From assembly GCA_029547025.1 (NCBI GenBank), contig JAKPQA010000350.1, positions 1 through 53,284 of the forward strand: a stretch of DNA of 53,284 nucleotides. The letters are read 5' to 3'. Position numbers and translations under genes: made by a program. Shown here piece by piece: positions 1 through 21,129 of this stretch; positions within the stretch are counted from its first letter, which is position 1, and each line of letters starts with the position of its first letter. Source of the stretch: Armatimonadota bacterium (lineage in GTDB: Bacteria; Armatimonadota; Zipacnadia; UBA1398; JAKPQA01). The notes under the pieces were generated by a model, which saw only the letters and a program-made list of their open reading frames with translations, did not search any database and was not told where the DNA came from.

Positions 1-115
1 AGGAGGCCCGCAGGCACGAACCCCGGGGGATGCCCGCGACGCCACCGTACCGGCGGCCGTCCTCGGCCGCCACGGCAGAGACGCGGGCCAGGAGGCCCGC
101 AGGCACGACCACCCA
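1..115. repeat. 89-bp two-hairpin repeat, end of an array that continues left
   Basis: The first bases repeat with an exact 89-bp offset: AGGAGGCCCGCAGGCACGA occurs at 1 and again at 90. The unit is the same as in the large array at 4571-5338, with the hairpin GGCGGCCG-TCCT-CGGCCGCC and the hairpin GCGGGCC-AGGA-GGCCCGC. About 1.3 units are visible, so the array extends beyond the window. It ends just before the stop codon of the DUF4139-like gene. Confidence 0.93.
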
Positions 116-126
116 AATGTTCGTTG

Positions 127-1872
127 TTACTGTCTCACGTAGACCCTGTACTGGTAGGTGATGTCGCGGGCTTGCTGGGGCTCGACGGTGAGGTCCCACA
201 CGAGCTCGGTGGTCGGGTTGGCGAAGGTCAGCTTGCGGGCGACCTTTCGGGCCTGGGGCTCTGTGTCCGCCCGGATCAACTCGCCCTGAAGTTCCCGCCG
301 GGCGCTAAGCCGGACGGCCTCGGATTTATGGTTGGACACGTGTAGCTTGCCTTCCACCGTCACCAGGTCGTAGTGGACGCCGTGGACCGCCATGGCGTCG
401 CGCTGCCGTGTGGTCTCGCTCTCGGCGCTCTCGGCCAGTATGTCGGGGGCCACCGTCGTTTTCAGGTCGACCTTGGCGCCCGCGGGCGTGTACCGGAGCA
501 GGTCCTGCCCGACGGGCTTGCTCTCGACCATCGCCAGCGCGGGCCCCGTGGTCCAGGGCACGTCACTCTGGTTCGTCAGCCTCAATGCATGCCAGACGCG
601 GCTCGCCGCGAGCTGTGCCGCGAGCTCCTCGGGCGAGAGCCGTTCGGTGGGCCTAGCGGCATCCTCGCGGTAGTCGAGCACGCCCTGCAGGATGTCCCAC
701 AGGTAGACGTCCTCGCACGGGACCTGCATGTCGAGCAGCGAGAACGTCCCGCGGGCGCCCTTGGCCATGGTCACGTGGTCGATGCGGTAGAAGAACAGCT
801 CGTCGGCCCCGGCCCCTGACACGTCGGTGGCCTCGAGGGCGCTGTCGTCGAGCGGGTTGTAGACGGCGCCCTCGCCGCCCATCATGCCGCCGCCCATCGC
901 TGACTGCGTCATCATGGCGTTCGAGTAGGCGTCACGCCGGCGCCCGTCCTGCGGTGCCATCTGGGCGAAGTAGGACGACAAGCCTGTCCACGCTGTTTCA
1001 AGTGATAGGGGCGATACCACATCCTGCTGGATGAAGTTGGGCACGCCCACGGCGAAGTGGACGGTCGTATCGGCCAGCGCAACGGCCTCGTTGATGAACG
1101 TGGCGTGCAGCCGCAGACGGACGGCCCCGTCGCCGCCGCGATGCACCGCGTAGGTCGGGATCCAGCGGATTCCCTTGGCCATGTAGCCCATTCCGAAGGA
1201 CACGTCGCCGGACACGGGCTCGTCGCCGCGCAGCAGGTGGGCCGAGAGCTTCTTCTGCCGAGATGGCCGGGCGAACTCCTTGGGGGGCTCGTTGCCGAAC
1301 TGGACGGTGGAGACGGTTCCCACCGAGACCGTCGTTGTCTCCTGGCCCGATTGAACGACGAGGTGGGTCACCGGTCCGCCCGGGGCCACAGGGACTGGGC
1401 CGTAGCCGTAGCGGTAGGCGTACTCCGGTCGCACCAGCGAGGGGACGGGGTCATTCGGGCTCGTCGCCGGCGGCAGGGCCGGCAACACGGCCACCAAGGT
1501 GCCCTCGACCGCCTTGCCGTCGGTCAGTCGGACCTTGACCTCAGAGCCGACATTGGCGCGCAACAGGTCCTCATAGGTCTGAACGGCCGCCGACTCGGTG
1601 CCCTGGTTCTCCTCCGTCATCGCGCGGTCGACCCGGACGCCCTCGTCGGTCGAATAGAGCCAGAAGGTGCCGAGCGAGGCCTGGGGGACTTGGCCGGTGG
1701 TGATCCAGCCGTCGGTCGCCCTAGTGCGCCCCTCGGACAGCACGAACCCGTAGCCGTGCTTGTAGGCCACGAGCTGCACCGGTGCCGCCAGGCCGTTGGC
1801 CTGGGCAGCCGTGCTTGAGGGCCCGACCGCCATCAGGGCCCACAGCATCACGCCGCATGCACTCCTGCGCAT
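127..1872 (-). CDS. secreted DUF4139-like protein with short Met-Gly tract
   Basis: The function is not known. From the chosen ATG (1872), preceded by a GAGAGGAA ribosome site at 1881-1888, the protein has 581 residues and begins with a signal peptide (MRRSACGVMLWALMAVG, Ala-rich to about residue 25). A longer ORF starts upstream at 1941 but has no signal or ribosome site. Residues about 208-280 contain 'GYMAKGIRWIPTYAV', which resembles the DUF4139 (mucoidy-inhibitor-A-like) domain, where a similar 'Y.A.G..W.P.Y' segment is typical. Around residues 105-130 a 'VRLTDGKAVEGTL' stretch resembles a small beta-barrel. Residues about 325-335 carry 'SAMGGGMMGGEG', a short form of the Met-Gly tract that dominates the 14-21 kb cluster. 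The gene is divergent from the S55 protease. It probably acts in the periplasm or on the surface; the family assignment is moderately sure. Confidence 0.7.
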   Translation of the reverse strand: MRRSACGVMLWALMAVGPSSTAAQANGLAAPVQLVAYKHGYGFVLSEGRTRATDGWITTGQVPQASLGTFWLYSTDEGVRVDRAMTEENQGTESAAVQTYEDLLRANVGSEVKVRLTDGKAVEGTLVAVLPALPPATSPNDPVPSLVRPEYAYRYGYGPVPVAPGGPVTHLVVQSGQETTTVSVGTVSTVQFGNEPPKEFARPSRQKKLSAHLLRGDEPVSGDVSFGMGYMAKGIRWIPTYAVHRGGDGAVRLRLHATFINEAVALADTTVHFAVGVPNFIQQDVVSPLSLETAWTGLSSYFAQMAPQDGRRRDAYSNAMMTQSAMGGGMMGGEGAVYNPLDDSALEATDVSGAGADELFFYRIDHVTMAKGARGTFSLLDMQVPCEDVYLWDILQGVLDYREDAARPTERLSPEELAAQLAASRVWHALRLTNQSDVPWTTGPALAMVESKPVGQDLLRYTPAGAKVDLKTTVAPDILAESAESETTRQRDAMAVHGVHYDLVTVEGKLHVSNHKSEAVRLSARRELQGELIRADTEPQARKVARKLTFANPTTELVWDLTVEPQQARDITYQYRVYVRQ

Positions 1873-1965
1873 CGTCTTACTTCCTCTCGCCGAGATGCCA
1901 TCGGGGCCCGAGCGGGCGTCCGACCCGCTGTAGCCCGGCACGGCTTCTGCCGCTACACTGTTCGA

Positions 1966-3762
1966 ATGCCTCGGACTTGGGTGGTGCGTCCCATGGGTTT
2001 GTCTGCCGCCAGGCGTCTCGGGTTCCAGCTGATTGCCGCTGTGCTCATGTTGCTCGCAGTCGCTGGGGCCGGCTGGTGCGTCCTCCCCGTATCGATGCTC
2101 GAGCCGGGGATGCGCGGCTATGGGAAGACGGTGCTTGCGGGCACTGAGGTCACGACGTTCGACGTGCGCATTGTCGATGTCGTCCGTAGCAACGGCCGGG
2201 TACCTGACCTGATCCTCATCAAAGTGGGCGGAACGGCCATCGAGCAGGCGGGCGGCATCTCGGCGGGGATGAGTGGCAGCCCCGTGTACATTCGCGACCA
2301 GCTCATCGGCGGGATCGCCTACACGACGCCGTTCGCCGACACGACCTATGGCTATGTCGCTCCGATCGAGTACATGCTTCCGCTACTGGACTGGCCGGCC
2401 GAGCGCGAGGATCCCTGGGCGGTGCGGGGGCAGCTCACCGGGTCGCTCCTTGACGATCTGTCCCGTGCCAACAGCCCGGTGATGGTATCCGGTCTTTCGT
2501 CGCGGGCCTTCGAGCGCCTGAGCGACCGTCTGGCGGGCCGCGGGCTTCGGGCGGTCCAGGGCGGCGCCATGGGGGAGTTCGCGGGGGACCAGCCGCTGGT
2601 GCCGGGGTCGAGCGTCGGCATCCAGCTCGTCCGCGGCGATGTGAACGTCACTGCCGTGGGTACCATGACCCACGTGGATGGTGATCGATTCATCGCCTTT
2701 GGCCACTCGTTCATCCACCAGGGCCCGTGCCAGTTCCCTATCGTGGCTACCAAGGTGGCGGCCGTGGTTCCGAGCACGCAGCTGCCGTTCAAGATGGCAA
2801 GCCCGGGCACGCGGGTGGCCGGTACGGTGACGCAGGACCGCCAGATGGGGCTGGGCGGGCGGTTGGGCGCCGCGCCCAGCATGGTGAAGCTCGACCTGAC
2901 GGTCTCGGGCGAGCATCTGGCCCAACCTACGCCGGTGACGATGGACCTCGTGTGGGATCCCGAACTCACGGCCGAGCTCGTCGGCACCGCCTCGCTGGGC
3001 GCCATCGACTCGTGCGCTGACCGGGAGGGTGTGGGTTCGGCTTTGGTGACTCTCCAGGTCTCCCTTGCCGATGGCACATCGGTGACGCGGGCCGATGTGG
3101 TGTCGACGCGGGAGGATGTGGGGGGCTATGCCGCACTCGAGGCGAAGGATATCGTCGAGGCCCTTGTCCTGAACTCCATCGGCCCGGTGCTCCCAAAGCG
3201 GATTAGCCTCGGTGTGCACATCTCGCGGCGTCCGGCGCTGGCGCGCATCGCGGCGGTGAGGGTTGAGCCCCCTACGGCCTCGCCTGGCGACACGGTGTTG
3301 GTGACGGCGGAGCTGGTTCCCTTTCGAGCGGCCGCCGAGACGGTCCTGTTCTCGCTGCGCGTCCCTGCCGATGCCGCGCCGGGATTCCCGCGGATTCGTG
3401 TGCACGGCAAAACCGCCCAGTCGCTTCTTGTCTACGATGATCATGAGACGGTCACCCCTACCACTCTGCCCGAGTTCCTACAGATGGTCGAGGGGAGTGG
3501 CAAGCGCCGCAGCCTGGTGTGCGACCTGGTTTTCTCGCCTTTCGACCGGCTGCCGCTGAGCTTGCCATTCAGTGCCTTCGTGCCCGTGCAGCCGGAGGAC
3601 GCCGAGTCGCTGCGCGACTTGCCATCGCGGCCCCCGGTGTTGCGCGACATGGCAACGCAGGGCCTGCTGCAGCTCATCCGCGTTGGTGCGCGAGTCGTGC
3701 AGGACACGGCCTACGTGATCGAGGGGGATGTTTCCGTTCCGTTGCGCATCGTGGCCCGATGA
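1966..3762 (+). CDS. SpoIVB-type S55 serine protease family protein, motif order permuted
   Basis: A 598-residue protein with one N-terminal membrane/signal segment (residues about 20-40). Residues 47-140 match the C-terminal half of the SpoIVB S55 peptidase domain: 'GMRGYGKTV', then 'GISAGMSGSPVYI' with candidate nucleophile Ser103, then 'YGYVAPIEYML'. The candidate catalytic His247 lies downstream in 'DGDRFIAFGHSF', whereas in Bacillus SpoIVB the His motif precedes the Ser motif. So the two halves of the domain are in swapped order. The rest (residues about 330-598) looks like beta-rich repeats without a recognised name. It probably cleaves or binds envelope proteins outside the cytoplasm. 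The stop overlaps the mlaE-like gene region, which starts 12 bases later, suggesting co-transcription. The start could also be the ATG at 1993; neither has a strong ribosome site. Confidence 0.85.
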   Translation: MPRTWVVRPMGLSAARRLGFQLIAAVLMLLAVAGAGWCVLPVSMLEPGMRGYGKTVLAGTEVTTFDVRIVDVVRSNGRVPDLILIKVGGTAIEQAGGISAGMSGSPVYIRDQLIGGIAYTTPFADTTYGYVAPIEYMLPLLDWPAEREDPWAVRGQLTGSLLDDLSRANSPVMVSGLSSRAFERLSDRLAGRGLRAVQGGAMGEFAGDQPLVPGSSVGIQLVRGDVNVTAVGTMTHVDGDRFIAFGHSFIHQGPCQFPIVATKVAAVVPSTQLPFKMASPGTRVAGTVTQDRQMGLGGRLGAAPSMVKLDLTVSGEHLAQPTPVTMDLVWDPELTAELVGTASLGAIDSCADREGVGSALVTLQVSLADGTSVTRADVVSTREDVGGYAALEAKDIVEALVLNSIGPVLPKRISLGVHISRRPALARIAAVRVEPPTASPGDTVLVTAELVPFRAAAETVLFSLRVPADAAPGFPRIRVHGKTAQSLLVYDDHETVTPTTLPEFLQMVEGSGKRRSLVCDLVFSPFDRLPLSLPFSAFVPVQPEDAESLRDLPSRPPVLRDMATQGLLQLIRVGARVVQDTAYVIEGDVSVPLRIVAR

Positions 3763-3773
3763 GGGGAGGAGCC

Positions 3774-4559
3774 GTGCGTGACGTGTTCCAACTGGCGCCG
3801 TTGGTGGCGCGGGTCTCGGCCGCAGTGACCCATGGCATTGGGTTCACGGGCGAGGCCGCCCTGCTCGGCTGGGCAGCCATGGGATATGCCTGGCGCCGGC
3901 GCGTCGACTGGCGCGAGGTGCTTCGCCAGCTGTGCGTGATCGGATGGAGTTCGCTCCCCGCGGTGCTGGTGACCGTGTTCTTCTCGGGCGCCGTGGCGGC
4001 GCTTCATACCGCCGACCAGTTCGTGCAGTTCGGCCTCTCCCAGGTCATCGGTGGCGCGGTTGCCGTGTCGGCGGCGCGCGAGATCGCGCCGGTGCTCGGG
4101 GCGGTGATCGTTCTGGCCCGGGCCGGCGCGGGGATGACGGCCGAGATCGGCTCGATGAAGGTCACCGACCAACTCGATGCTATGCGGTCTCTCGGGGTGA
4201 GCCCGACCGAGTACCTGGTGTCGCCGCGTCTCCTCGCCGGCATGGTGGCGTTGCCACTGGTCTTCGTGCTGGCCGTCTATGCCGGATGTCTGGGCGGCTA
4301 CGTGGTCGCGCAGGGGTCTGGGGTGACGCTGGGCGAGTTCAGTGATTCGGCGGCACGGCTGCTCGAGTTCCGGGACCTGCTCGGGGGCGCACTGAAGTCG
4401 ATCGTGTTCGGGGCACTGATCGTCCTCGTATGCTGCGCTGCGGGCCTGAGGGTGACGGGGGGCGCTGCGGGCGTCGGCCGCCAGACCAATACGGCAGTGG
4501 TGATTGCCCTGATGAGCATCTATATTGTCAACTACTTCCTGGCGGAACTGATCTGGTAG
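3774..4559 (+). CDS. MlaE/YrbE-family ABC transporter permease
   Basis: An integral inner-membrane protein of 262 residues of the MlaE family, the permease of phospholipid/sterol trafficking ABC systems. The typical core is visible: 'QFGLSQVIGGAVAVSAARE', 'EIAPVLGAVIVLARAGAG', then 'GSMKVTDQLDAMRSLGVSP', which is the family's EIG-M-V-eQIDAL-like cytoplasmic loop. The GTG start at 3774 is chosen because GGGGAGGA lies at 3763-3770; an ATG at 3759 overlaps the preceding stop (ATGA) but has no ribosome site. The gene is translationally coupled to the S55 protease. No MlaF ATPase or MlaD (MCE) gene is adjacent, so its partners must be elsewhere or the ABC ATPase at 12971 is not its obvious match. 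Family assignment is firm; substrate is unknown. Confidence 0.9.
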   Translation: MRDVFQLAPLVARVSAAVTHGIGFTGEAALLGWAAMGYAWRRRVDWREVLRQLCVIGWSSLPAVLVTVFFSGAVAALHTADQFVQFGLSQVIGGAVAVSAAREIAPVLGAVIVLARAGAGMTAEIGSMKVTDQLDAMRSLGVSPTEYLVSPRLLAGMVALPLVFVLAVYAGCLGGYVVAQGSGVTLGEFSDSAARLLEFRDLLGGALKSIVFGALIVLVCCAAGLRVTGGAAGVGRQTNTAVVIALMSIYIVNYFLAELIW

Positions 4560-4570
4560 GCCGGTAGACG

Positions 4571-5338
4571 CGAACACCCGGGGATACTCGAGACGCCACC
4601 GTGCCGGCGGCCGTCCTCGGTCGCCACGGCAAAGGCGCGGGCCAGGAGGCCTGCAGGCACGAACACCCGGGGGTACCGGGTACGCCACCGTGCCGGCGGC
4701 CGTCCTCGGCCGCCACGGCAAGAGCGCGGGCCAGGAGGCCCGCAGGCACGAACACCCGGGGATACTCGAGACGCCACCGTGCCGGCGGCGGTCCTCGGCC
4801 GCCACGGCAAAGGCGCGGGCCAGGAGGTTCGCAGGCACCGGCACCCGGGGATACTCGAGACGCCACCGTGCCGGCGGCCGTCCTCGGCCGCCACGGCAAA
4901 GGCGCGGGCCAGGAGGCCCGCAGGCACGAACACCCGGGGATACTCGAGACGCCACCGTGCCGGCGGCCGTCCTCGGCCGCCACGGCAGAGACGCGGGCCG
5001 GGAGGCCCGCAGGCACGAACACCCGGGGATACTCGAGACGCCACCGTGCCGGCGGCCGTCCTCGGCCGCCACGGCAAGAGGGCGGGCCGGGAGGCCCGCA
5101 GGCACGAACACCCGGGGATGCTCGAGACGCCACCGTGCCGGCGGCCGTCCTCGGCCGCCACGGCAAAGGCGCGGGCCAGGAGGCCCGCAGGCACGAACAC
5201 CCGGCGGCACCCGAGACGCCACCGTACCGGCGGCCGTCCTCGGCCGCCACGGCAAAGGCGCGGGCCAGGAGGCCCGCAGGCACGAACACCCGGGGATACT
5301 CGAGACGCCGCCGTGCCGGCGGCCGTCCTCGGCCGCCA
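4571..5338. repeat. direct array of nine 89-bp two-hairpin repeats
   Basis: The anchor GCCACCGTGCC (or a one-base variant) starts at 4595, 4684, 4773, 4862, 4951, 5040, 5129, 5218 and 5307, giving an exact 89-bp period over nine units, the last cut at about 5338. Each unit holds two hairpins: GGCGGCCG-TCCT-CGGCCGCC and GCGGGCC-AGGA-GGCCCGC. Their loops, TCCT and AGGA, are complementary; in units where the second loop is GGGA a G-U pair would keep this. The period is not a multiple of three, so the long ORFs in all frames across it are not genes. The RAYT transposase follows immediately. There are no spacers, so this is not CRISPR. Confidence 0.97.
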
Positions 5339-5447
5339 GTGCGGATCCGATCACAGCGGTACGGCCGCAGAGGTCGCAGTCTAGATGAGACTGAACTTCT
5401 CATGCGGATGCTGTGCGGCGCTCTGTTGCCGACAGGAGGGCGGTGCT

Positions 5448-5939
5448 GTGAGGGGGCGCGACGTGCTTCGCACTTTCGAACGGCGCCAGAGGCACTTGCC
5501 GCACTGGGAGCAGCCCGGCTCCGTCTATGCTGTCCGCTTCTCAGTCAGACGGGGATGTCCGGTTGACCTGACTGATCCGCGCATCGGTCGCATCGTTGTT
5601 ACTTCGCTCCGGCACTACGACGGTGTCCGGTACGGTCTGTACGTCTTCACCGTAATGCCGGACCATGTGCACGCGGTGCTTCGCCCAACGCCCCGGGACG
5701 GCGAGGTCGAGTACCTCTGGCGCATCCTCGGATCCATCAAATCCTGGACCGCGCGCAGCATCAACTCCGTGCTTGGCCGCCGCGGCCCGGTGTGGCGGGA
5801 TGAGTCGCATGACCGCATCATTCGGGACTTGGACGAGTACCAGAGGTGGATTGACTACATCTACATGAACCCTGTCGCGGCAGAGCTCGTGCGCGACCCG
5901 GCTCAGTGGCCTTGGTCGGGCGTAGGCCGGTGCGGATAG
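5448..5939 (+). CDS. REP-associated tyrosine transposase (RAYT, Y1/HUH family)
   Basis: A 163-residue single-strand DNA transposase of the IS200/IS605-like RAYT group, which binds and cleaves REP hairpins. The HUH motif is 'VMPDHVHAVL' (His73, His75). 'GPVWRDESHDRIIRDLDE' matches the family's conserved block before the active-site helix, and 'WIDYIYMNPVAAELV' carries the candidate catalytic Tyr137, at the place of Tyr115 in the E. coli RAYT. All key residues are present, so it could be active. The GTG start at 5448 is preferred because AGGAGGG lies at 5434-5440; the ORF opens further upstream at 5385 without support. Nine 89-bp repeats lie upstream and about 1.3 units downstream, with no transposon-type ends of its own, as expected for a RAYT with its REP-like arrays. 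Confidence 0.95.
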   Translation: MRGRDVLRTFERRQRHLPHWEQPGSVYAVRFSVRRGCPVDLTDPRIGRIVVTSLRHYDGVRYGLYVFTVMPDHVHAVLRPTPRDGEVEYLWRILGSIKSWTARSINSVLGRRGPVWRDESHDRIIRDLDEYQRWIDYIYMNPVAAELVRDPAQWPWSGVGRCG

Positions 5940-5949
5940 CGGGCTGCGG

Positions 5950-6068
5950 ACGCACGAACACCCGGGGATACTCGAGACGCCACCGTGCCGGCGGCCGTCC
6001 TCGGCCGCCACGGCAAAGGCGCGGGCCGGGAGGCCCGCAGGCACGAACACCCGGGGATACCCGAGGCG
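5950..6068. repeat. 89-bp repeat, about 1.3 units downstream of the RAYT
   Basis: The same unit as at 4571-5338 in the same orientation, with anchors at 5979 and 6068 (89 bp apart). It starts a few bases after the RAYT stop and ends about 30 bases before the glutaredoxin start, so the RAYT is flanked on both sides by its putative repeat substrate. Confidence 0.95.
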
Positions 6069-6099
6069 CCAGCGCAAAGCCTTGCGGGGAGAGACGGAC

Positions 6100-6426
6100 A
6101 TGTCTCGGGCGTTGAACCAAGCGCGGACCATGCTGGGCCGGCCCGCGAAGGGAGTGTCTGCCGTGGCGGACGCGATTGTGTTCTACGGCGCCGACTGGTG
6201 TCCGGACTGCCTGCGCAGCAAACGGTATCTGGAACACCACGGGGTAGTGTTTCGCTTCGTCGATACCGATGCGGACCCCGGGGCCAATGAGGCTATACGG
6301 CACCTTCAGGGCGGCCGGGAGAGGATCCCGACCATCGTGTTCCCCGACGGGAGCTTCCTGGTGGAGCCGTCGAACTCGCAGCTTTCGAGCAAGCTCCAGG
6401 AACTGGGCCTGCTGGTCGCGAGCTAG
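6100..6426 (+). CDS. glutaredoxin-like thiol-disulfide protein
   Basis: A 108-residue cytoplasmic thioredoxin-fold protein. The active site is 'GADWCPDCLRSKRYL' (CPDC), followed by 'FRFVDTDAD', the cis-Pro 'RERIPTIVFPDGS' and a C-terminal helix, which is the full order of a glutaredoxin/mycoredoxin-like domain. Family members reduce mixed disulfides; the partner thiol cannot be told from sequence. The ATG at 6100 is chosen because GGGGAGAGA lies 5-12 bases upstream; the ORF also opens at a TTG (6082) without support. An extra 25 residues precede the fold. The gene begins just after the second repeat block and its stop overlaps that of the convergent TIM-barrel gene within one CTAG. Confidence 0.88.
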   Translation: MSRALNQARTMLGRPAKGVSAVADAIVFYGADWCPDCLRSKRYLEHHGVVFRFVDTDADPGANEAIRHLQGGRERIPTIVFPDGSFLVEPSNSQLSSKLQELGLLVAS

Positions 6427-7202
6427 CCCGCGGCCTCGGCCTGCCACTGTGACAGCACGCGCTGGACGCAGGCGAGCTGCCAGGCGACTTCGCGGTACTC
6501 GTTCTTGGCCGTGTGGTGTTCCACACCCCAGTAGCCCGCGTAGCCGGCCTCGCGCAGGATTCCCATGTGCTCCTCGAGCCGCGTGGCCGTGATCCGGGCA
6601 TCGACGTGGGTGTGCGCCGTCCACGGGGCCATGCGGCGGTCTCCGCCCACTTCGTCGCCGTCGTCCCAGTGGCCCAAGTGCAGCAGGATACCGTAGTTCG
6701 GCCGACCGACCGCATTGGCTAGAGTCTCCATGTTGTCGGCGAGTAGTGAGAACCCCCAGTGGTTCTCGGGGCCAACCGTGAAGCCGTGGCTGGCGCCGAA
6801 ATCGCAGTAGTCCTGGTACGCCCGCGTGATCGTGTCGAGCTGCTCCGAACCGAAGGGCACCTGTGTGCCCCCCGTATCGATGCGGACCGTCTCGGCGCCG
6901 AGGATGGCGGCTGCTCGAAGGTGCGCCTCGGCCAGCTCGCGGTTGCGCTTCCGGGCGTCGGGATCGTCCTCCCAGATGTGGCAGCCGTCGGCGTGGTAGT
7001 TGGCCACGGTCATCTCACGCTCGTCCAGTGTCCGCCGCAGCTTGCGGAGGAAGCCCTCTTCCACACTGCCCACCAGGCCATTCCACAGGTCGGCCGCATG
7101 GATCCCGTAGCGGTACTGCACGGTCTCGAGATATCCAAACACGTCGATGCGCCCCTCGGCCAGCAGGCCGTGGAAGCTGTACCCGGCAATGGTGATCCGC
7201 AT
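6423..7202 (-). CDS. sugar phosphate isomerase/epimerase-like TIM barrel
   Basis: A 259-residue protein of the xylose isomerase-like (AP endonuclease 2) TIM-barrel family. It starts 'MRITIAGYSFHGL'; metal-site-type residues include 'VRIDTGG', 'GPENHWGFS', 'LHLGHWDDGD', 'AHTHVDAR' and 'GVEHHT', the usual Glu/Asp/His ligands on successive strand ends. Such proteins isomerise or epimerise sugars or keto-sugars; the substrate is unknown. The ATG at 7202 has GGAGG seven bases upstream; the upstream extension to 7301 is low-complexity and unlikely to be translated. It lies downstream of the GH16 and six-hairpin glycosidase genes on the same strand, so it may process sugars they release. Confidence 0.88.
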   Translation of the reverse strand: MRITIAGYSFHGLLAEGRIDVFGYLETVQYRYGIHAADLWNGLVGSVEEGFLRKLRRTLDEREMTVANYHADGCHIWEDDPDARKRNRELAEAHLRAAAILGAETVRIDTGGTQVPFGSEQLDTITRAYQDYCDFGASHGFTVGPENHWGFSLLADNMETLANAVGRPNYGILLHLGHWDDGDEVGGDRRMAPWTAHTHVDARITATRLEEHMGILREAGYAGYWGVEHHTAKNEYREVAWQLACVQRVLSQWQAEAAG

Positions 7203-7343
7203 GGCGTCCTCCGTTGATGTCCCAGGGAATGGGGGGCTGCCAGGGCCACAGCCCGGCGACCTGGGTCGAGATGGCGTTCGCCCGGAGACGCCGGTCGCCA
7301 AGCGGAAAGGGCGCCGCCCGGGCTGCCCTGAGGGGCGCTCCCC

Positions 7344-8483
7344 CTACTCTCCGCGCTTCCACGCCCGCACGTACTCGATGCTGTACGTGGACGGCAGGTC
7401 TTCGTCTTTCGGGAGCCCGAACCAGTCGGGCATGGTCTCGCTGTCGAAGTTCAGCGTCAGTGGCTGGTGCCAGTGCGTGTTCGGGCCCCAACGGACCAGC
7501 ACGCCATCGAGGTAGAACCGCAGCTCCCGCTCATCCCACTCGAGCCCATACACATGGTAGTCATCGACCAGGTCCCATGGCGTTTCGTAGGCGCCGCCGA
7601 TGGCGATGTGTTGCCTCTCGGCGGGCGTTCTCATGACGTGAACGGTCATGTTGAGCTTTCGCTCGTAGCCCGGGGCGCGGCCGCCGATCTCGTAGACGTC
7701 GATCTCGGTCCACCAGTCATCGGTTGAGTCGTAGAACCAGAACGAGCTGGAGCCCGCTGACTTCATTGGCTTTGCCTTGACCTCGAAGTAGCCGTAGCGG
7801 ACCGTTTGCTTGCTCTTGACGGCCGCGCTCGTGTAGGTGTGATAGCCCTCCTCCTTCGACGCTTCGGCCACTTCCTGCTTCCGCATCGCCAGGTGGAGCT
7901 TCCCATCGCTCACGGTCACGTTGCCGGCATAGAAGAAGGCCGGCTGCCGGCCCTTCCAGCCCGGGTTGTTGGGCCACCACTTGGTCGCATCGAGTGTGTC
8001 GCCCTCGAACTCGTCGGTGAGCGGCTCATAGGGCACCCATCGGCCCTCGTTGGCCTGGTCGGAGAGGGGAAGATCGTCGCGGACTCGCTGCACCCCACCG
8101 CCGCTCAGATCGGGGGTGAAGGCCTCCCAGGCGGCGGCCCACTGGCCGACGTCTTCGGCCTGTGGCTCGATTCCCGCCGCGCCGAAGTCATCGCGCGCCA
8201 GCGGGCTGACACGTGCGGCGTAGTCGACGGGGTCGGGCGGGATGGCCACGGCGCCGACGGCCAGGCCGGCGGCCACATCGAATGGGCCGGCGTAGCGCCG
8301 GGACAGCGAAGACGCGCCCGGGCCGATGAGCCAGTAGCGCAGCTCGCACCCGCGCGGCCCGCTGAGTACGACGTTGCCCGCCGCGTCGCGGCTGATCTCC
8401 GGGCTCGGCGTCCCCTGCCCCGCCAGCGGTACTACCGAAGCCGCCAGCACGGTTCCCGCGAGCATGCATCGGTGGATCGACAT
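7344..8483 (-). CDS. secreted GH16 family endo-beta-glycanase (agarase/carrageenase-like)
   Basis: A 379-residue exported enzyme. A signal peptide (about residues 1-23, ending 'PLAGQG') is followed by a small beta domain (residues about 28-80, 'GCELRYWLIGPGAS') like the Fn3-type chitobiase C-terminal domain, and a GH16 catalytic jelly roll from about residue 157 ('DEFEGDTLDATKWW'). The GH16 signature is 'WWTEIDVYEIGG', with Glu260 as nucleophile, Asp262, and Glu265 as acid/base. The 'PGWKGRQPAFFYAGNVTV' stretch is typical of the agarase/porphyranase/carrageenase side of the family, so a marine-type or related beta-galactan is a plausible substrate, but this is inference. The ATG at 8483 has AGGGAGAG ten bases upstream; the GTG at 8492 is too close to it. 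Confidence 0.93.
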   Translation of the reverse strand: MSIHRCMLAGTVLAASVVPLAGQGTPSPEISRDAAGNVVLSGPRGCELRYWLIGPGASSLSRRYAGPFDVAAGLAVGAVAIPPDPVDYAARVSPLARDDFGAAGIEPQAEDVGQWAAAWEAFTPDLSGGGVQRVRDDLPLSDQANEGRWVPYEPLTDEFEGDTLDATKWWPNNPGWKGRQPAFFYAGNVTVSDGKLHLAMRKQEVAEASKEEGYHTYTSAAVKSKQTVRYGYFEVKAKPMKSAGSSSFWFYDSTDDWWTEIDVYEIGGRAPGYERKLNMTVHVMRTPAERQHIAIGGAYETPWDLVDDYHVYGLEWDERELRFYLDGVLVRWGPNTHWHQPLTLNFDSETMPDWFGLPKDEDLPSTYSIEYVRAWKRGE

Positions 8484-8502
8484 GGGTGTCACTCTCCCTA
8501 TT

Positions 8503-8590
8503 GCTCTTCGTGCCCGCGGGCCTCCCGGTCCGCGCCGTTGACGTGGGTTCTGCTATGGCGGGCGAGGACGTTCGCCGGCACAGGACCATA
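8503..8590. repeat. decayed, inverted copy of the 89-bp repeat
   Basis: The reverse complement of this stretch lines up with the 89-bp unit. TTCGTGCCCGCGGGCCTCCC matches the complement of the AGGA hairpin side, and GGCGGGCGAGGACGTTCGCC matches the complement of the TCCT hairpin side. About ten extra bases sit between the two blocks. It fills the gap between the GH16 start and the six-hairpin glycosidase stop, showing that the family is dispersed and not only tandem. Confidence 0.75.
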
Positions 8591-8594
8591 GGCC

Positions 8595-10571
8595 CTACTC
8601 CAGCGCCACCTCGATGCTCCCCTCGCCCGTCCACGGCCGCCGTAGTATCGTATGCCCGTTCGACAGCACCGAGACCTCCGTGCCCTGTCGCTGCCGCGTG
8701 ACGACGATGCTGAACTCGCGCCCAAAGGCGCGCACGTTCCGCAGGGCCATGTGGTCCCAGCGCGACGGCAGCTTCGGCGCGCAGCGGAACGAGCTCAGCC
8801 CGGTCGGCACGATGCCGAACAGCCCCTCGGTGACCACCCGGCAGTACAGCGCACTCTCGGCCGATAGGTGCGCCTGGTTCCCCTCGGGGTAGGCCTCGAC
8901 GGCGTAGGGCACGTGGTCGCCGAGCAGCCGTCGGCGCGAGTACTCGGCGAAGTACCGCAGCGCCCGGTCCGTCTCGCCGACGAAGAACACCCCGCGCAGG
9001 GCGTAGAGGGTCGACCGATCCCAGAAGGTGATCTCGCCCGCCTGGGTCGCCAGGCCGTCCACGGTCCACAGCCTGGGCGAGAACAGCGCCTGCAGCGTGC
9101 CGGCTTTGCGCTCGTCAATGCCCATCGTCAGCGGAACGCAGATCCAGGCGCGAAGCACCGTGTTCCCGTCGTAGTACCGGTAGGTGTCGAACCCCTCGAC
9201 CGTGGCGCCGAAGTAGCGATCGATGTCGGCCCGCAGCTCGACCGCCCAGCGGTCGTACTCGTCCGCCGAGGCCCCGTCGCCCAACGCCCGCGCCACGTCG
9301 GCCGCTGACCGCAGCGCGCCATAGGTCAGCGTTGAGGTGTTCAGGTTCGCCCTCCCGGCCGGGAACCGGCCCTCGAGCTCGTCGCTGTCCGACGCGATGA
9401 CGCGCTCGGCCGTGGTGTGCCTCCTGCAGTACTCGAGGCACCAGCGGATAGCGGGCCAGAGTTCCTGAGCAACGGCGCGGTCGCCGAGGGCCAGGGCGTA
9501 GCGCGACGCGCCGTAGGCCACCATCGCTGCGTCGCCGCGGTCACCCGCGCCGCCCCAGGTGTCGACCCCTTCGGCGATGACCGATGAGGGGATGGCTGTG
9601 TACTCGGGCGTCATGAACCGAGCGAAGTGGCGGAAGCAGTTGAGCGACGCCTCGTTCCCGCCGGCGTCGCCGAGGAACGGGAAGAATGGCGCCGCGTACT
9701 CGGCCTGGTCGTTCGCCCAGATGGCCGCGTAGTACCGCCCCCCGCCCGGGCCATGCATCAGCCCGCCTTTCGTGGCGAAGATGCTCTCGGCCGCGCGGAG
9801 CTTCGCCAACTCGAACGCACGGTCGAGCACCGGGTCGGGCGTCTCCAGCCTCAGCGACCGCGATAGGCCGTGGACGAACGCCCGCCGGTCGCGCTCCTCG
9901 CTCTCACCGTCAACCTGAGGCGGCGCCTCGGGTGCCACCCGGCCGGTGTAGACGGTGTCGAGGCCGACGGTGGCCCCCGGCGCCAGTTCCCGCGGTCTCA
10001 GCCCAGCCGACCGTGCCTCCATCACGTACTCGCCCGCCACGCCCGTGGCGCGGTACTCGGTTTGGAGTGGCGAGGCGGCGACCGTGACAGCGGTCGTGTT
10101 GGCGTTGCGGAGCATCCACCGCTCGATCACATAGGGGCCCTCGCGCGACGGAAGAAGCGTCCGCGCCAGGTCGATCCCTCCGGCCGTGTGGCTCTCAAGA
10201 GTGAGTGTGCCGTCAAACGCGACGCGGAAGGGCTTCTCCACGCCAATGGGCTGTCCGTCGACCGTGACCTGCGGGCTCGCGTCGATGCCGAAGTCGTGGA
10301 TCAGGCTCGCGTGGGTGTCGTTGGGGATGGTTCGGAGCATCGGCCATACGACCCGGCGCGAGAGCACGAGTTCACCGCCCTGGTTGGTGCCGTAGGTCAC
10401 GATCACCGCTACACGACGGCCACTCATCTCGATGTGGTCCGAGTGCGGTGAGTCGCCATTGTCGATGATCCACTCGATGCCGCTCTCGGCGAGCCGCCAT
10501 CGATCCCGGGCGGCGGAAGGGTCAGCCAGAGCGGCCATCAGGGCACACCCGGCGGGGAGAACAGGGGCCAT
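8595..10571 (-). CDS. six-hairpin (alpha/alpha)6-barrel glycosidase-like protein
   Basis: A 658-residue protein. The N-terminal 230 residues form a beta-sandwich-like domain, and residues about 240-600 form helical hairpins of the six-hairpin glycosidase superfamily (GH63/GH78/debranching type). Diagnostic pieces are 'GGRYYAAIWANDQAEYAAPF', 'WGGAGDRGDAAMVAYGAS', 'TFWDRSTLYALRGVFFVGE' and 'EAYPEGNQAHLSAESALYCR'. Candidate acidic residues lie in 'WANDQAEYA' and 'VEAYPEG'. The exact GH family is not clear. A weak signal may be present ('MAPVLPAGCALMAALA'). The ATG at 10571 has GGAGG eight bases upstream. It probably cleaves oligosaccharides made by the neighbouring GH16 enzyme. Confidence 0.82.
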   Translation of the reverse strand: MAPVLPAGCALMAALADPSAARDRWRLAESGIEWIIDNGDSPHSDHIEMSGRRVAVIVTYGTNQGGELVLSRRVVWPMLRTIPNDTHASLIHDFGIDASPQVTVDGQPIGVEKPFRVAFDGTLTLESHTAGGIDLARTLLPSREGPYVIERWMLRNANTTAVTVAASPLQTEYRATGVAGEYVMEARSAGLRPRELAPGATVGLDTVYTGRVAPEAPPQVDGESEERDRRAFVHGLSRSLRLETPDPVLDRAFELAKLRAAESIFATKGGLMHGPGGGRYYAAIWANDQAEYAAPFFPFLGDAGGNEASLNCFRHFARFMTPEYTAIPSSVIAEGVDTWGGAGDRGDAAMVAYGASRYALALGDRAVAQELWPAIRWCLEYCRRHTTAERVIASDSDELEGRFPAGRANLNTSTLTYGALRSAADVARALGDGASADEYDRWAVELRADIDRYFGATVEGFDTYRYYDGNTVLRAWICVPLTMGIDERKAGTLQALFSPRLWTVDGLATQAGEITFWDRSTLYALRGVFFVGETDRALRYFAEYSRRRLLGDHVPYAVEAYPEGNQAHLSAESALYCRVVTEGLFGIVPTGLSSFRCAPKLPSRWDHMALRNVRAFGREFSIVVTRQRQGTEVSVLSNGHTILRRPWTGEGSIEVALE

Positions 10572-13941: not shown

Positions 13942-14895
13942 CTAGCGCCGACCGCCCATCATGCCAGGGCCCATCATCCCCGGCCCGCTGCCCATTCGGC
14001 CCCCCCCGGGGCCGGTGCCCCCCATGGGGCCCATGGCGCCAGGGCCGCCCGAGCCACCGGCCGCGCCCATCATGCCCGGACCGCCGCCCATCATGCCGGG
14101 GCCCATCATTCCGCCCATCATGCCGCCCTGGCCGGCCGCCGTGCCGCCAGAGCCGAGGTGGGCCTGCTGGAAGATGCGCCGGGTTCTGGACTGGTCAGTC
14201 GGCGGTGAGGATGGCGCCGACCGGTAGAACCACTTGTGGGTCCCGTAGTAGGGCGAGGTCAGCTCTGTTGGCGTCCCGGACTGCATCCGTTGGCGCTCTT
14301 GGGTCAGCCATGCGGCGATGGCAGCGTATTGGGTTGCTGTGGCCTGGTCGCCGTTGCCCAAGGCCTCGGCCTGGCGGGCGCATGCCTCGGCGATCTGGGC
14401 CGAGTAGACCTCCTGGGCGTTGGCGCGGGCCGTGGCGATGTAGTCATCCTGCCGTAGGCGTTCGCGGTAGATGGACGGCACACTGGCCATGGCCTGGGCG
14501 CCCAGGCGGCTCAGCTCGGCTTCCATGGCGGATCGAGTGCCCTCACGGTTGATGTAGATCGGCGCCGGAGGGATGCCGGTGGTGCCGCCCGATACGCGGT
14601 AGTCCGACCCCTCCTCGGTCTTGACTTCGGTCCCCGAAGGTGGCGCCGCGCCTCCGGGCGCGGGCGCTGCGGCCGATAGGCCACCCATCGGTGGCATGGC
14701 CCCGCCGGCGGCACCGGGAGGCATTTGCGCGTGGATCGTCCCCGAGGGCGCGAACGCCACGTAGGCCGCCAAGCCCAGGGCAAGCACCACGATCGCCAGA
14801 CCGGCGATATTCAGCCCGTTGCGCACGATCTCAGCAACTCCCTTCGCTCCCGAGCCGCCCGAGGCCACGGGGACAGCCCGGCTAGCGTAGACCAC
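13942..14895 (-). CDS. Met-Gly-tract protein 1: single-pass membrane protein with MG-rich tail
   Basis: Unrecognised, 317 residues. A single membrane segment (residues about 29-48, 'NIAGLAIVVLALGLAAYVAF') is followed by a Gly/Pro/Met-rich linker, a middle domain of about 130 polar and Ala-rich residues (about 105-235, helical, 'INREGTRSAMEAELSRLGAQ') and a C-terminal tail of about 65 residues dominated by Met and Gly ('GGMMGGMMGPGMMGGG'). It is the last of five consecutive same-strand genes with such tracts. It probably sits in the inner membrane with the tail outside or in the periplasm. The GTG start at 14895 lacks a clear ribosome site and could be a few codons later. Confidence 0.8.
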   Translation of the reverse strand: MVYASRAVPVASGGSGAKGVAEIVRNGLNIAGLAIVVLALGLAAYVAFAPSGTIHAQMPPGAAGGAMPPMGGLSAAAPAPGGAAPPSGTEVKTEEGSDYRVSGGTTGIPPAPIYINREGTRSAMEAELSRLGAQAMASVPSIYRERLRQDDYIATARANAQEVYSAQIAEACARQAEALGNGDQATATQYAAIAAWLTQERQRMQSGTPTELTSPYYGTHKWFYRSAPSSPPTDQSRTRRIFQQAHLGSGGTAAGQGGMMGGMMGPGMMGGGPGMMGAAGGSGGPGAMGPMGGTGPGGGRMGSGPGMMGPGMMGGRR

Positions 14896-14919
14896 GGATG
14901 CGGCGTGCGGCCCGGGGGC

Positions 14920-15747
14920 CTACCGCGAGAGATCCTCCGGCGATGGTGGCCGGTAGTACGGCCTCTGGACCGCTGGGGCCGCCGACGGACCCATCACATA
15001 GATCACCGTCAGGTCCTGCCGCTCCTCTTCGACACGACTCGCCCAGCGCGTGTCGTCGGGCTTCAGGCGGGTGGTGCGGCGGACTGCCGCCTCGGCGCTG
15101 CGGAGTATGTCTGCCTTCACCGAGTCCGGCAGGTTCTCGCCGAGGGCCAGCCCCTTCTGCACCGCTTTGGCGTGGATTCGCCGCACTTCGGCCCGATAGT
15201 GTGTGCTCTCCCAGTCGCCGGGCGACAGCCGCGCTGCCGCCCCAGACGCCACCTGTCGCAGGCTCGATGGCGACAACCGCCGCTCCATTCGTGCTTCGAT
15301 GGCACGTGTCGCCCCCGCGAACCGTGGCAGCTCCCTGGATTCGATCTGGTAGCGAATGGCCCTCGTGGACCCGGGGCGCAGCTGGCCCAGCGTGGGGTCG
15401 GTGAGTGCTGCGTGGCGCAGTGCCGCGTCGGCCAGCTCGGCGTGCAGTGGCTTCCATCGCTCATGAGAGGCCACGGACCATTCCAGCAGGGCCAGCTCCT
15501 CTTCGGAGAGCGGTCCCGGCTCGGTCGCCGGAGTGCTGGGCGCGGGGGCAGCCGGCGCGGCCGCGCCGCCACCCATCCCCCCCATGCCACCCATGCTGCC
15601 CATCATGCCGGGGGCGCCGCTGCCCATCATACCCGGCCCCATGGGGCTGGAGCCCTGGGCAGAAACCAGGTAGGGTCTCCCGACCAGGCAGACAAGGCCG
15701 AACAGGCCCAGTGCCACCGCTCCTGTTGCGATCCACAGTCTTCGCAT
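14920..15747 (-). CDS. Met-Gly-tract protein 2: secreted or anchored helical protein
   Basis: Unrecognised, 275 residues. It begins with a hydrophobic N-terminus ('MRRLWIATGAVALGLFGLVC') that is a signal peptide or anchor, directly followed by a Met-Gly tract ('MGPGMMGSGAPGMMGSMGG', about residues 36-62). The remainder (about 80-275) is charged and helical, with no motif I know. Here the tract is near the N-terminus, unlike protein 1 where it is the tail. The ATG at 15747 is preferred over the TTG at 15762 on ribosome-site grounds (GGTGG at about 8 bases). It lies 24 bases upstream of protein 1, so the two are very likely co-transcribed. Confidence 0.8.
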   Translation of the reverse strand: MRRLWIATGAVALGLFGLVCLVGRPYLVSAQGSSPMGPGMMGSGAPGMMGSMGGMGGMGGGAAAPAAPAPSTPATEPGPLSEEELALLEWSVASHERWKPLHAELADAALRHAALTDPTLGQLRPGSTRAIRYQIESRELPRFAGATRAIEARMERRLSPSSLRQVASGAAARLSPGDWESTHYRAEVRRIHAKAVQKGLALGENLPDSVKADILRSAEAAVRRTTRLKPDDTRWASRVEEERQDLTVIYVMGPSAAPAVQRPYYRPPSPEDLSR

Positions 15748-15798
15748 AGGCCACCGTTCCAATGCCAGTTCCCGGTTCGTGCGGGAGACTCTGTGCGC

Positions 15799-18030
15799 CT
15801 AGAACTCGCGCATCCTCGGGCTGACCATGTTCTCGATCTCCGGGTCGAAATCGGCGAATGTGCAGCAGCGGAAACCGCGGGCGCCGCCGCCCGTGACCGT
15901 GGCAGACACCGTGTTGGTTTCGTCCCGGAGCGCGAAGGCGCCGCACGCGGCGTCGGGTCCCGAAGACAGCCACGACCCGCCCCGCGTGTCGAAATCGACA
16001 GAGCCCGGCCGCGTGGTTACGCCGGAGCCCCAATGGCTCGTGTCATACAGAAGTCGGTGCTGAGTGAGCATTTCGCGGTAGGCGTCCGGACCGCTCGTGA
16101 TGTTGAACACGACGTCCGCCTCGACCCACTCGGCCAGGTTGCCGCTCATGTCATAGGCGCCGAAGCTGCTCACGCATTCGGGGAAGGCTCCGCTCTTGGC
16201 GATGCCGCCGCCGCGCGGGTTATCGGCCGTGTTGCACTTCGAGGGGTCGTACTGGTTGCCGTATGGGAACAGCCACGAGGCGGGTCCCGAGCACGCGGCA
16301 ACCCACTCGGTCGCGGAGCACAGGCGCTTGCCCTTGGCTGCGCACAGACTTCGGGCCTGCTCTAGCGTGGCCGCCACCGGCGTGGCGCCGGGGAAGTTGG
16401 GGTACTCGTACTTGTCGATGCAGAAGTTCATCCCACTGACCGCGTCCCACTGGAGGACGTAGTCAGTGAACGTGTCATCGAGTGGGTTGGACTTTCGTTT
16501 CCCCTCCGCGTCATAGGCCGTGATGAAACCGGGTCCGCCGCCGCCGCCGGCAGCGCCGCCGCCCATCATACCCGGCCCCATCATACCCGGACCGCCGCCC
16601 ATCATACCGGGGCCACTGCCCCTCATCGCTGCCGGCGGAGCGGAGGACCCCGCTCCCGGTCCCTGCATCACGCCGGCGGGAGCGCCCTGCATTCCGCCGC
16701 TGGCGGGGCCGCCTTCCGGCGTCATCCCGCCGCCCATCATGCCCGGCCCGCCCGCCGATGTGCCCGACCCCGTGCCAAAGAGCAGAGGGCTCCCCTGGTT
16801 GACGCGCTTCGCCTCGCTCGACCGGCTCAGGTGGGTGGCCACGACCGACGCCGCCTTGTCCAGTTTCAGCACAGTCCCACCCGCGTCGACGATGACGGCG
16901 GCACGCCGGCCGTACGGGTCGATCCCGTCGGGGCGCCAAGCGGGATCGCGGACGACGGTGTTCGGGGTTCCCTCATCGTGCGGCTGAGAAAATGCGTACT
17001 CGCCGGGCGCATTGCTCCTCTGAGGCACCCACACCATGCCGTCGGGGCACTTAGGCCGATCCGTGAGCAGGTCCGTTGTCTTGAATGCGGCCAGAGCAGT
17101 CCCGCCCGGAGGCACAAACACGACGCGCTGCCCGACGACTTTGACCTTGTCGGGCTGGCGCACGGCCCTGACCTCAACGATGTGCGAGCCTGCGATGACC
17201 CCCTGGACGCGGCTGGGAGTCGAGTCGCTGACCAGCACATCGTCCACGCGAACACTGACGTTCTCAGCGGTGAGGTCCGCGCTGATCAGGATGGTGCCCA
17301 GGTGCTCGCCGCCACGCAGCGAGACCGTTGTGGTCTCGCCCGCCCGAACGGTCACCATGTCACGGTAGGGCACGGGAGTCAGGCCCAGTATGATCTCGTG
17401 CTCGCCCGGCTGTATGTTGGTGAGGTGAAAGGGAGCCGTTCCCTCTATGGGCCGGCCGCTCAGCTGCCCCCACTGGATGGGCAGGTCGCTGGTGATCTCG
17501 ATGGTCCCGGCATGCTGCTTGGCGGCGATGTCGACGATGGCTGGCTCGCCCTTGGTGACGCCGAACTCTCTGGTGACCCGGAGCCACGGGCCGCTCAGCG
17601 TGACCACATGGCGGCCGATGGCCAGGTCCTGACGTTCGAAGGGGGTGTCGGCCGACACGGTGCCCGCGGCCTCACCGTCCAGCGTGATGGCGGCCCCGAC
17701 CAGATCGGACCGAAGCAGGAGGCTGCCCCGGGCTGGCTTGAGCTCGAAAGCCACCGAGGCCAGCTCCTGGGCCTTCACCTCGATGCTGTCCTGCGAGGCA
17801 TCGAGGTACTGATCGCTGCGCACTTCGACGCGGTACTTGCCGGGCGTCAGGTTCTCGAGCGTCAGCGGAGTCTTGCCCACGAGTTTGCCGTTGACGAACA
17901 AGTCCTGTCCGCTGGGTTTGGAGGTGACGAAGAGCGCCCCCGACTCGAGACTCCATGCGGGGAGCATAGACGTCGCGAGGAGCACCGCGATGGCGACCCA
18001 GTAGGTCCGGCCGCTGCCTGTCGACTTCAT
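15799..18030 (-). CDS. Met-Gly-tract protein 3: PEGA repeats plus FGE-like (SUMF1) domain
   Basis: A 743-residue exported protein. The signal peptide ends near residue 27. Four PEGA-like beta repeats follow (about 31-310; the first has 'KLVGKTPLTLENLTPGKYRV'), then a spacer, a Met-Gly tract (about 430-510, 'GPGMMGGGPGMMGPGMMGGG') and a formylglycine-generating-enzyme-like C-type-lectin fold (about 530-725: 'CIDKYEYPNFPGATPV', 'GKRLCSATEWVAAC', 'YDMSGNLAEWVEADV', 'GARGFRCC'). In true FGE two Cys act in the segment after 'RGGS'; here that segment reads 'RGGSWLSSGPDAACGAF', with only one Cys, so enzyme activity is doubtful and a binding role more likely. PEGA domains often bind peptidoglycan or surface glycans. 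The ATG has GGAGGAAG about 7 bases upstream. Confidence 0.88.
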   Translation of the reverse strand: MKSTGSGRTYWVAIAVLLATSMLPAWSLESGALFVTSKPSGQDLFVNGKLVGKTPLTLENLTPGKYRVEVRSDQYLDASQDSIEVKAQELASVAFELKPARGSLLLRSDLVGAAITLDGEAAGTVSADTPFERQDLAIGRHVVTLSGPWLRVTREFGVTKGEPAIVDIAAKQHAGTIEITSDLPIQWGQLSGRPIEGTAPFHLTNIQPGEHEIILGLTPVPYRDMVTVRAGETTTVSLRGGEHLGTILISADLTAENVSVRVDDVLVSDSTPSRVQGVIAGSHIVEVRAVRQPDKVKVVGQRVVFVPPGGTALAAFKTTDLLTDRPKCPDGMVWVPQRSNAPGEYAFSQPHDEGTPNTVVRDPAWRPDGIDPYGRRAAVIVDAGGTVLKLDKAASVVATHLSRSSEAKRVNQGSPLLFGTGSGTSAGGPGMMGGGMTPEGGPASGGMQGAPAGVMQGPGAGSSAPPAAMRGSGPGMMGGGPGMMGPGMMGGGAAGGGGGPGFITAYDAEGKRKSNPLDDTFTDYVLQWDAVSGMNFCIDKYEYPNFPGATPVAATLEQARSLCAAKGKRLCSATEWVAACSGPASWLFPYGNQYDPSKCNTADNPRGGGIAKSGAFPECVSSFGAYDMSGNLAEWVEADVVFNITSGPDAYREMLTQHRLLYDTSHWGSGVTTRPGSVDFDTRGGSWLSSGPDAACGAFALRDETNTVSATVTGGGARGFRCCTFADFDPEIENMVSPRMREF

Positions 18031-18138
18031 GACGTCACTTCCTCCAGCTCAACGCGCCCGCCGGTGGTGACCGTCCACCCCGGCGGGATTACCCGGTGTG
18101 GCTCTGGCCTGTGGCCAGGTCCCGCCGAACACTCGCGC

Positions 18139-20217: not shown

Positions 20218-20280
20218 CTCTGTGGACCGTTCCCTTCCCTGTGGCGTGAACAGCACCACGCGAGAGCGGTTCTGCCGAAC

Positions 20281-21129
20281 CTACATCGCGCCCCCTGGGC
20301 CGCCCGCCACTGAGCCGCCGCCACCGCCGCCGCCGCCCATCATGCCACCCATCATACCGCCCATCATCCCACTGCCCATCATGCCGCCCATCATGCCGCC
20401 CTGGCCCTGTGAGGTGGTCCACGGGTCGAGGAACGTCTCGGGCGAGGCCATCAGGCCCTGAGCGATGGCCAACCAGGCATTGCCGAGGCCGCGCAGGGCA
20501 CGACAGTGGATTTTCCGCGCTTCGAGCAGCAGCTTCTGGTTCTCGGGGGCCAGATCGTGGGCGATGAGCCCGCCGCCCCCCATACCGCCGCCCATCATGC
20601 CGCCACCCATCATGGCGCCGCCACCCGGCATCATTCCGCCGCCGGACCCGGCGGCGCCCCCGGCCATGGCCCCAGCGCCCATCATCCCAGGCATGGCGCC
20701 GCCACCCATGCCGCCACCGGGACCCGCCTGCGACTTCGACGACGTGCCGCGGACCTCGTCCATCTTCTCCTTGGCCTGCTTGTAGGCATCGCGGGCGGCC
20801 TGGAGGTTGCCGTCCTCCATTTGCTTGTCGGCTTTCTCGAGCAACGCGAGGGCCTCGTTCATGAGCCGGCGGGCCTTCTTGGGGTCGGCCGTCTGCTGCA
20901 TGCCGGCGCCCATCATGCCGCCCATACCGCCCATCATCATCCCGCCGCCCGAGCCGCCCATCATCATGGGGTTGATGCCACCGCCACCAGGGCCACGCAT
21001 CAGGCCGCCGCCGGCGGAGCCCCCCGCGGCGGCGCCGCCCCCTTGGTTCGGCACAAGCTGCGCCCAGGCGGTTCCGCCCAGCATGAGTGCCAGGCCCACT
21101 GCGGCGCAGAACATCACTCTCGAACGCAT
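20281..21129 (-). CDS. Met-Gly-tract protein 5: secreted, small helical hairpin among MG tracts
   Basis: A 282-residue exported protein, the first gene of the cluster. It has a signal peptide ('MFCAAVGLALMLGGTAWAQ') and a Met-Gly tract to about residue 77. A charged helical hairpin follows (about 81-128, 'KARRLMNEALALLEKADKQM'), resembling a single TPR or coiled coil. After a second MG tract (about 138-185) comes a short helical segment ('ENQKLLLEARKIHCRALRGL') and a third MG tract. It ends PGGAM like protein 4. Over half of the protein is low-complexity Gly/Met/Ala. No enzyme motif. The ATG at 21129 follows GGTGGAG. A structured leader lies upstream. Confidence 0.85.
   Translation of the reverse strand: MRSRVMFCAAVGLALMLGGTAWAQLVPNQGGGAAAGGSAGGGLMRGPGGGGINPMMMGGSGGGMMMGGMGGMMGAGMQQTADPKKARRLMNEALALLEKADKQMEDGNLQAARDAYKQAKEKMDEVRGTSSKSQAGPGGGMGGGAMPGMMGAGAMAGGAAGSGGGMMPGGGAMMGGGMMGGGMGGGGLIAHDLAPENQKLLLEARKIHCRALRGLGNAWLAIAQGLMASPETFLDPWTTSQGQGGMMGGMMGSGMMGGMMGGMMGGGGGGGGSVAGGPGGAM

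Follow-up and report, generated by a model that had tools for sequence, protein, structure and literature searches.

A gene for a REP-associated tyrosine transposase (RAYT) that lies among 89-bp repeats in an uncultured Armatimonadota genome raises the question of whether the repeats belong to the enzyme and, if so, by which feature it would tell them from other hairpins. The window (the whole stretch of DNA that was analysed, 53,284 nucleotides of contig JAKPQA010000350.1, here C80) contains the RAYT gene, two flanking arrays and two further repeat sites. The locus is very probably a REPtron, in which the gene for a single-strand-specific Y1 HUH endonuclease sits within tandem arrays of its cognate REPIN. 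As read from sequence, it departs from known REPtrons in the fourth base of the REP foot, C instead of G, and in an Arg for Gln at the position of E. coli TnpA-REP Q95. The features referred to below are as follows.

1-115, + strand: 1.2 89-bp units at the contig's left end (91% identity to the consensus over 17-105)
4571-5338, + strand: tandem REPIN array in which 8 of the 89-bp units are complete and a ninth is cut to 56 bp (register 4571+89i)
4599-4659, + strand: 61-bp REPIN of the first unit, taken as representative; REP-B with foot GTGCC comes first, then inverted REP-A, whose outer foot reads GGCAC on this strand
5313-5337, + strand: REP-B directly upstream of the RAYT gene, with GTGCC foot, 8-bp stem and TCCT loop
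5434-5439, + strand: AGGAGG, probably the RAYT gene's ribosome-binding site, read from sequence
5448-5939, + strand: gene for the RAYT, a Y1 HUH transposase, with GTG as its probable start, within an ORF that opens at 5385
5796-5798, + strand: codon of R138, the residue aligned to Q95 of E. coli TnpA-REP (PMC8266576, PMC6006769)
5955-6074, + strand: 1.35 more 89-bp units 3' of the RAYT gene
6020-6044, - strand: inverted REP-A, the first intact one 3' of the RAYT gene, GTGCC foot on the - strand
8510-8581: single dispersed REPIN, REP-A (foot 8510-8514, + strand) and inverted REP-B (foot 8577-8581, - strand)

The upstream array starts 12 bp after the stop codon of an MlaE-permease gene and keeps a strict 89-bp period with no register shift (TRF score 1343) until the ninth unit is cut at unit position 56. 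The preliminary description had counted nine exact units here; the exact period stands, but the ninth unit is partial and the complete units are 88–97% identical to one another (23 of 89 positions variable), with 86–92% identity to the copy at window position 17. Its 1.3 units downstream of the RAYT gene agree with the 1.35 units found, and of the further copies that it placed at 1-115 and 8503-8590 the former is the 1.2-unit stretch, whereas the latter holds no 89-bp unit. By the ORF table, the three repeat sites of the window lie in intergenic gaps. The contig begins at window base 1, inside an 89-bp unit, and the assembly breaks inside the array at 1-115.

Because dispersed copies in the genome match unit positions 29/30-89 only, the two-hairpin 61 bp constitute the element, and linker makes up the remaining 28 bp. 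Each 89-bp unit thus consists of a 61-bp REPIN, whose two REP hairpins differ from each other and are inverted with their feet outward (REP-B, GTGCC-GGCGGSCG-TCCT-CGSCCGCC; REP-A, GTGCC-YGCGGGSC-TCCT-GSCCCGCG), and the 28-bp linker. As a single strand the REPIN of the first unit folds more strongly than shuffled sequences (z = -3.2). The REP stems are 8 bp long with a 4-nt loop, 93% and 91% of the cells in two alignments are paired, and compensatory stem changes exceed those of shuffles (covariation score 0.201 vs 0.112 and 0.172 vs 0.119, in alignments of distinct REP variants picked by hand from the genome matches). The GTGCC-footed elements share with canonical REPs a short GC-rich hairpin under pairing constraint, and also the multi-copy state (70 copies, 23 loci). 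The RAYT gene is flanked by two inverted REPs, the REP-B at 5313-5337 (+) and the REP-A at 6020-6044 (-); directly 3' of its stop codon stands a degenerate REP (5940-5954), and it is the following unit that holds the intact inverted one. The dispersed REPIN at 8510-8581 has the opposite orientation to the array units, a longer spacer and no linker, and fills the gap between two genes. Dispersed inverted REPs with their feet outward are likewise found at C108, C183:5526, C362, C177 and C201. By eye, GC or GA dinucleotides are conserved 3' of REP-A (TTGC/TTGA about 6 nt past the stem); these may reflect homology of the REPIN spacer and were not counted as evidence.

The enzyme encoded between the arrays is a RAYT. 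Its ORF is uninterrupted and passes the NCBIfam model NF047646 (83.7 bits vs a cut-off of 80), in keeping with the intact RAYT of the preliminary description, while its score against an IS200/IS605 model is far under that model's cut-off; a Pfam search of the protein gave no match. In the 184-residue ORF the HVH motif (94-96) and Y158 occupy invariant or conserved columns, with N162 and P163 completing YxxNP. Translation probably starts at GTG 5448, 8 nt after AGGAGG, which would give a protein of 163 residues, and ORF residues 1-24 are predicted to be disordered. The AlphaFold model (pLDDT 84.5) has 4ER8 as its best PDB fold match (E 2.1e-9), an entry that the RAYT also matches by sequence, followed by IS200/IS605 TnpA. 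The TnpA proteins of ISDra2 and IS608 share the fold and the logic of a hairpin with a tetranucleotide guide, but their structural and sequence match to the window RAYT is weaker than that of the RAYT reference.

The units were said in the preliminary description to lack the GTAG foot typical of REPs. GTAG was indeed not found on either strand of the two 89-bp units checked, but the hairpins do have a foot, GTGCC. When the genome was searched with the stem-loops alone and the flanks were read afterwards, GTGCC stood directly 5' of 38 of 43 perfect stem-loops, the remaining five being one base off, and of 70 of the 92 stem-loops with 0–2 mismatches. Among the 17 matches without a foot-like sequence 14 carry two mismatches, as expected by chance. 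The 70 GTGCC-footed hairpins occupy 23 loci in this 369-contig genome, which is a lower bound. In 34 distinct REP variants, all drawn from foot-bearing matches, foot bases G1, G3 and C4 are invariant while the stems vary. Published REP families have the foot GT[AG]G (PMC2817692, PMC6006769), placed 0–2 nt 5' of the hairpin in canonical REPs; the present foot fits at G1, T2 and G3 and differs at base 4, which is C. The suggestion that the recognition rule may be new thus gains support from sequence (a near-invariant GTGCC at 70 hairpins and 23 loci, and Arg for Q95), although the elements are not footless as had been supposed. No mention of a GTGC foot was found in the limited set of RAYT/REP literature searched, and as far as that literature goes a naturally occurring foot whose fourth base is C is new.

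Across the genome the arrays at C80/C183, C116/C292, C177/C201 and C85 differ in linker; each array type has a linker and a period of its own (periods of 89, 75, 87 and 136 bp occur), which suggests separate local duplications. C177 and C201 carry one array type at 97% identity, C116 and C292 likewise one type, and the contigs of each pair may be neighbours. The linkers of C80 and C183 are related, so that a unit or array was copied between them or both have a common origin. A contig end is no more than 250 bp away at eight of the 23 loci (counted by hand), vs about 3% expected (p about 2e-7); arrays break the assembly, and copy numbers are therefore lower bounds. A repeat of about 185 bp, 94–96% identical at three sites (C103, C354 and C336, loci L275, L276 and L277; two at contig ends), contains one REP-A half and may be a larger element that uses a REP as an end. 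Besides the window RAYT the whole genome has two RAYT matches. One (C157:22500-27000, locus L144) lies inside its own 109-bp tandem array with GTAG feet (GCGAGGC-TTCA-GCCTCGC), and the other (C246:5872-6249, locus L064) is weaker and has an in-frame TAG stop; recurrent REPs were not found beside it.

In foot-plus-stem pattern searches of 291 genomes of the phylum (the host genome and 290 others), the host genome gave 53 REP-A and 39 REP-B matches and none with the reversed-pattern control. Elsewhere isolated matches occur in five genomes for REP-A, roughly what the reversed-pattern control gave, and in four for REP-B, and a comparable repeat population was not found in the 290 other genomes. 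The preliminary description had named units in RAYT-less genomes as one observation that would tell against its view; this part of it was covered here, and no unit population was seen in the 290 genomes, including G001, a member of the same order with no RAYT match and no repeat population (one three-mismatch match; control one). A second genome of the order, G002, goes beyond the isolated matches elsewhere with four GTGG-footed hairpins (GTGGC-GGCGGGCG-TCCC); its only RAYT match, L053, has GTGG feet and belongs to a distant clade, and a direct descent of REP-B from these hairpins was left unproven. The named relatives matched by the RAYT include Candidatus Zipacnadia. In this comparison, which holds one genome per species, neither an empty site nor movement of a REPIN was observed.

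The repeats could owe nothing to the enzyme. If the arrays were ordinary tandem duplications, made by slippage or recombination at strong hairpins with the RAYT as a mere neighbour, their array-specific linkers would follow readily from hairpin-rich DNA that is prone to slip, as would the arrays at C183, C85, C116 and C177, which are away from any of the three RAYT matches in the genome. This account leaves unexplained why the two-hairpin part recurs with a near-invariant foot at more than 20 loci, why other genomes have no such population and why RAYTs and REPs are associated in relatives, and we consider it unlikely. Selection at the RNA level, with the elements serving as terminators or mRNA-stabilising hairpins rather than as mobile DNA, would fit the strong folding and the intergenic position of the window copies. 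It has a very low probability in our judgement: the foot and the inverted pairing are those of REPINs, the arrays surround a RAYT gene, and an Rfam scan of window positions 1-9000 matched no family and hence no known RNA element. The elements may in addition have a secondary function for the host.

A further alternative keeps the RAYT but removes the new recognition rule, by having the enzyme read the opposite strand of REP-B, which in the C80 array reads CCGTGG and so offers a possible canonical foot (CCGTGG-CGGCCG-AGGA-CGGCCG). GTGG is present on that strand in the C80 and C183 arrays and at about three other loci, that is, at only about 5 of 16 REP-B loci by our own reading of the flanks; it is missing from about two thirds of them (C116, C177, C85, C94, C57, C161 and others), and REP-A has no such foot at all, whereas GTGCC is found at nearly all REP-A and REP-B loci. 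An opposite-strand GTGG was thus rejected as a general rule since it is not conserved across loci, and this alternative is very unlikely. On the REPtron reading that we favour, the stem-loop and the GTGCC foot are most likely the features by which the RAYT recognises a REP folded as a single strand; the enzyme would cut near the REP and so disperse REPINs to intergenic sites. Because the array types have their own linkers, the arrays most likely arose when a REPIN and its flanking DNA were duplicated locally, head to tail.

The arrangement itself is already on record: tandem clusters of REPINs with flanking sequence adjoin RAYTs in Pseudomonas (Bertels and Rainey 2011, PMC3116915), and Stenotrophomonas has head-to-tail modules with unrelated inter-REP segments (PMC2817692). 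Among 111 loci, some of which overlap and nearly all of which were fetched for a RAYT match, 43 carry tandem arrays with a period of at least 30 bp, a few of them not REP arrays; with the published clusters this makes the array arrangement an ordinary one. At one such locus, from Symploca sp. SIO1C2 (L186), a RAYT is accompanied by a 106-bp REP unit repeated in tandem about 20 times, and two Moorena loci (L206, L207) have similarly long arrays. In an Armatimonadetes contig (VGFB01000338; L035/L152) a RAYT lies between 42-bp REP arrays of 10 and 2.5 copies with GTAG feet, and the contig ends within such an array. As in the REPINs of Bertels and Rainey (PMC3116915), the present unit is made of two inverted REPs; it differs in its host, an uncultured Armatimonadota lineage, in its GTGCC foot, in the longer array (8.6 units upstream and 1.35 downstream, with the RAYT in the middle) and in its small REPIN population (23 loci seen). 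The GT(A/G)G REPtrons (PMC2817692, PMC6006769, PMC8266576) likewise combine a Y1 HUH RAYT with inverted flanking REPs, place the foot 5' of a GC-rich hairpin and have modules arranged head to tail with array-specific inter-REP segments; unlike them, the window element has an extra conserved base (C5) ahead of the stem, in addition to C rather than G at foot base 4 and Arg at the Q95 position.

How RAYTs distinguish their own REPs from others is the question to which a natural C4 foot speaks. In the guide model tested in vitro, foot bases 3 and 4, or else 2 together with 4, determine which dinucleotide is cut; altering the foot of a Marinomonas REP altered the dinucleotide, and GTAC led to GA and GT (PMC8266576). 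Application of this guide rule to GTGC predicts cleavage at GC or GA. Q95 of E. coli TnpA-REP is among the residues reported as foot contacts (PMC8266576, PMC6006769), and its position, Arg in the window RAYT, is a candidate specificity residue. Together, a C4 foot, a second RAYT of this genome with canonical GTAG repeats and a matching change at a reported foot-contact residue amount to a natural experiment for the guide model.

RAYTs of the same class with GTG[G/C]- and GTA[G/C]-footed REPs (G012, G023, G044; G008, G017, G021; G019) have C4 on at least one flanking REP, and they too have lost Gln95 (Leu, Ala, Gly, Glu). In most of these relatives C4 is stem-paired and coexists with G4, whereas the C4 of the window element is not base-paired and is almost fixed in REP-A and REP-B alike; the REPs of G019 have GTGC feet only. 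One of two trees joins the window RAYT to the GTG[G/C] clade as its sister, at moderate support (85/76), and its placement is unresolved in the other. The link between residue and foot was first noticed on 36 hand-labelled RAYTs, and an automatic call of the feet to either side of every RAYT followed, for the most part on those same loci. The raw calls show Gln lost in 9 of 11 C4-foot RAYTs vs 6 of 30 G4-only RAYTs (Fisher p = 5e-4). The figures become 9/9 vs 6/36 (G4) after six labels were reassigned by hand once the result had been seen (L174 and L032 read as other-strand artefacts; L035, L036, L212 and L219 moved from 'other' to G4), and as the C4 cases fall in about three lineages the count of 9/9 overstates their independence. 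A Bacteroidetes RAYT outside the two-sided set (SKS5.bin54, L217) retains Gln95 near GTAC/GTGC hairpins and is a likely exception. The association of C4 feet with loss of Gln95 is thus a lead, not a result. That this RAYT lineage reprogrammed its guide, with base 4 going from G to C, the Gln95 contact lost and cleavage shifting from CT/CA to GC or GA, and that guide and enzyme co-evolved in this way several times in Armatimonadota, is conceivable, though we would lean slightly against it.

Elsewhere in the window, positions 14057-20652 are rich in short tandem repeats like GCCGCCCATCAT, which fit Met/Gly-rich stretches (MMGG), and stretches of this type also occur in the ORF at 127-1941.
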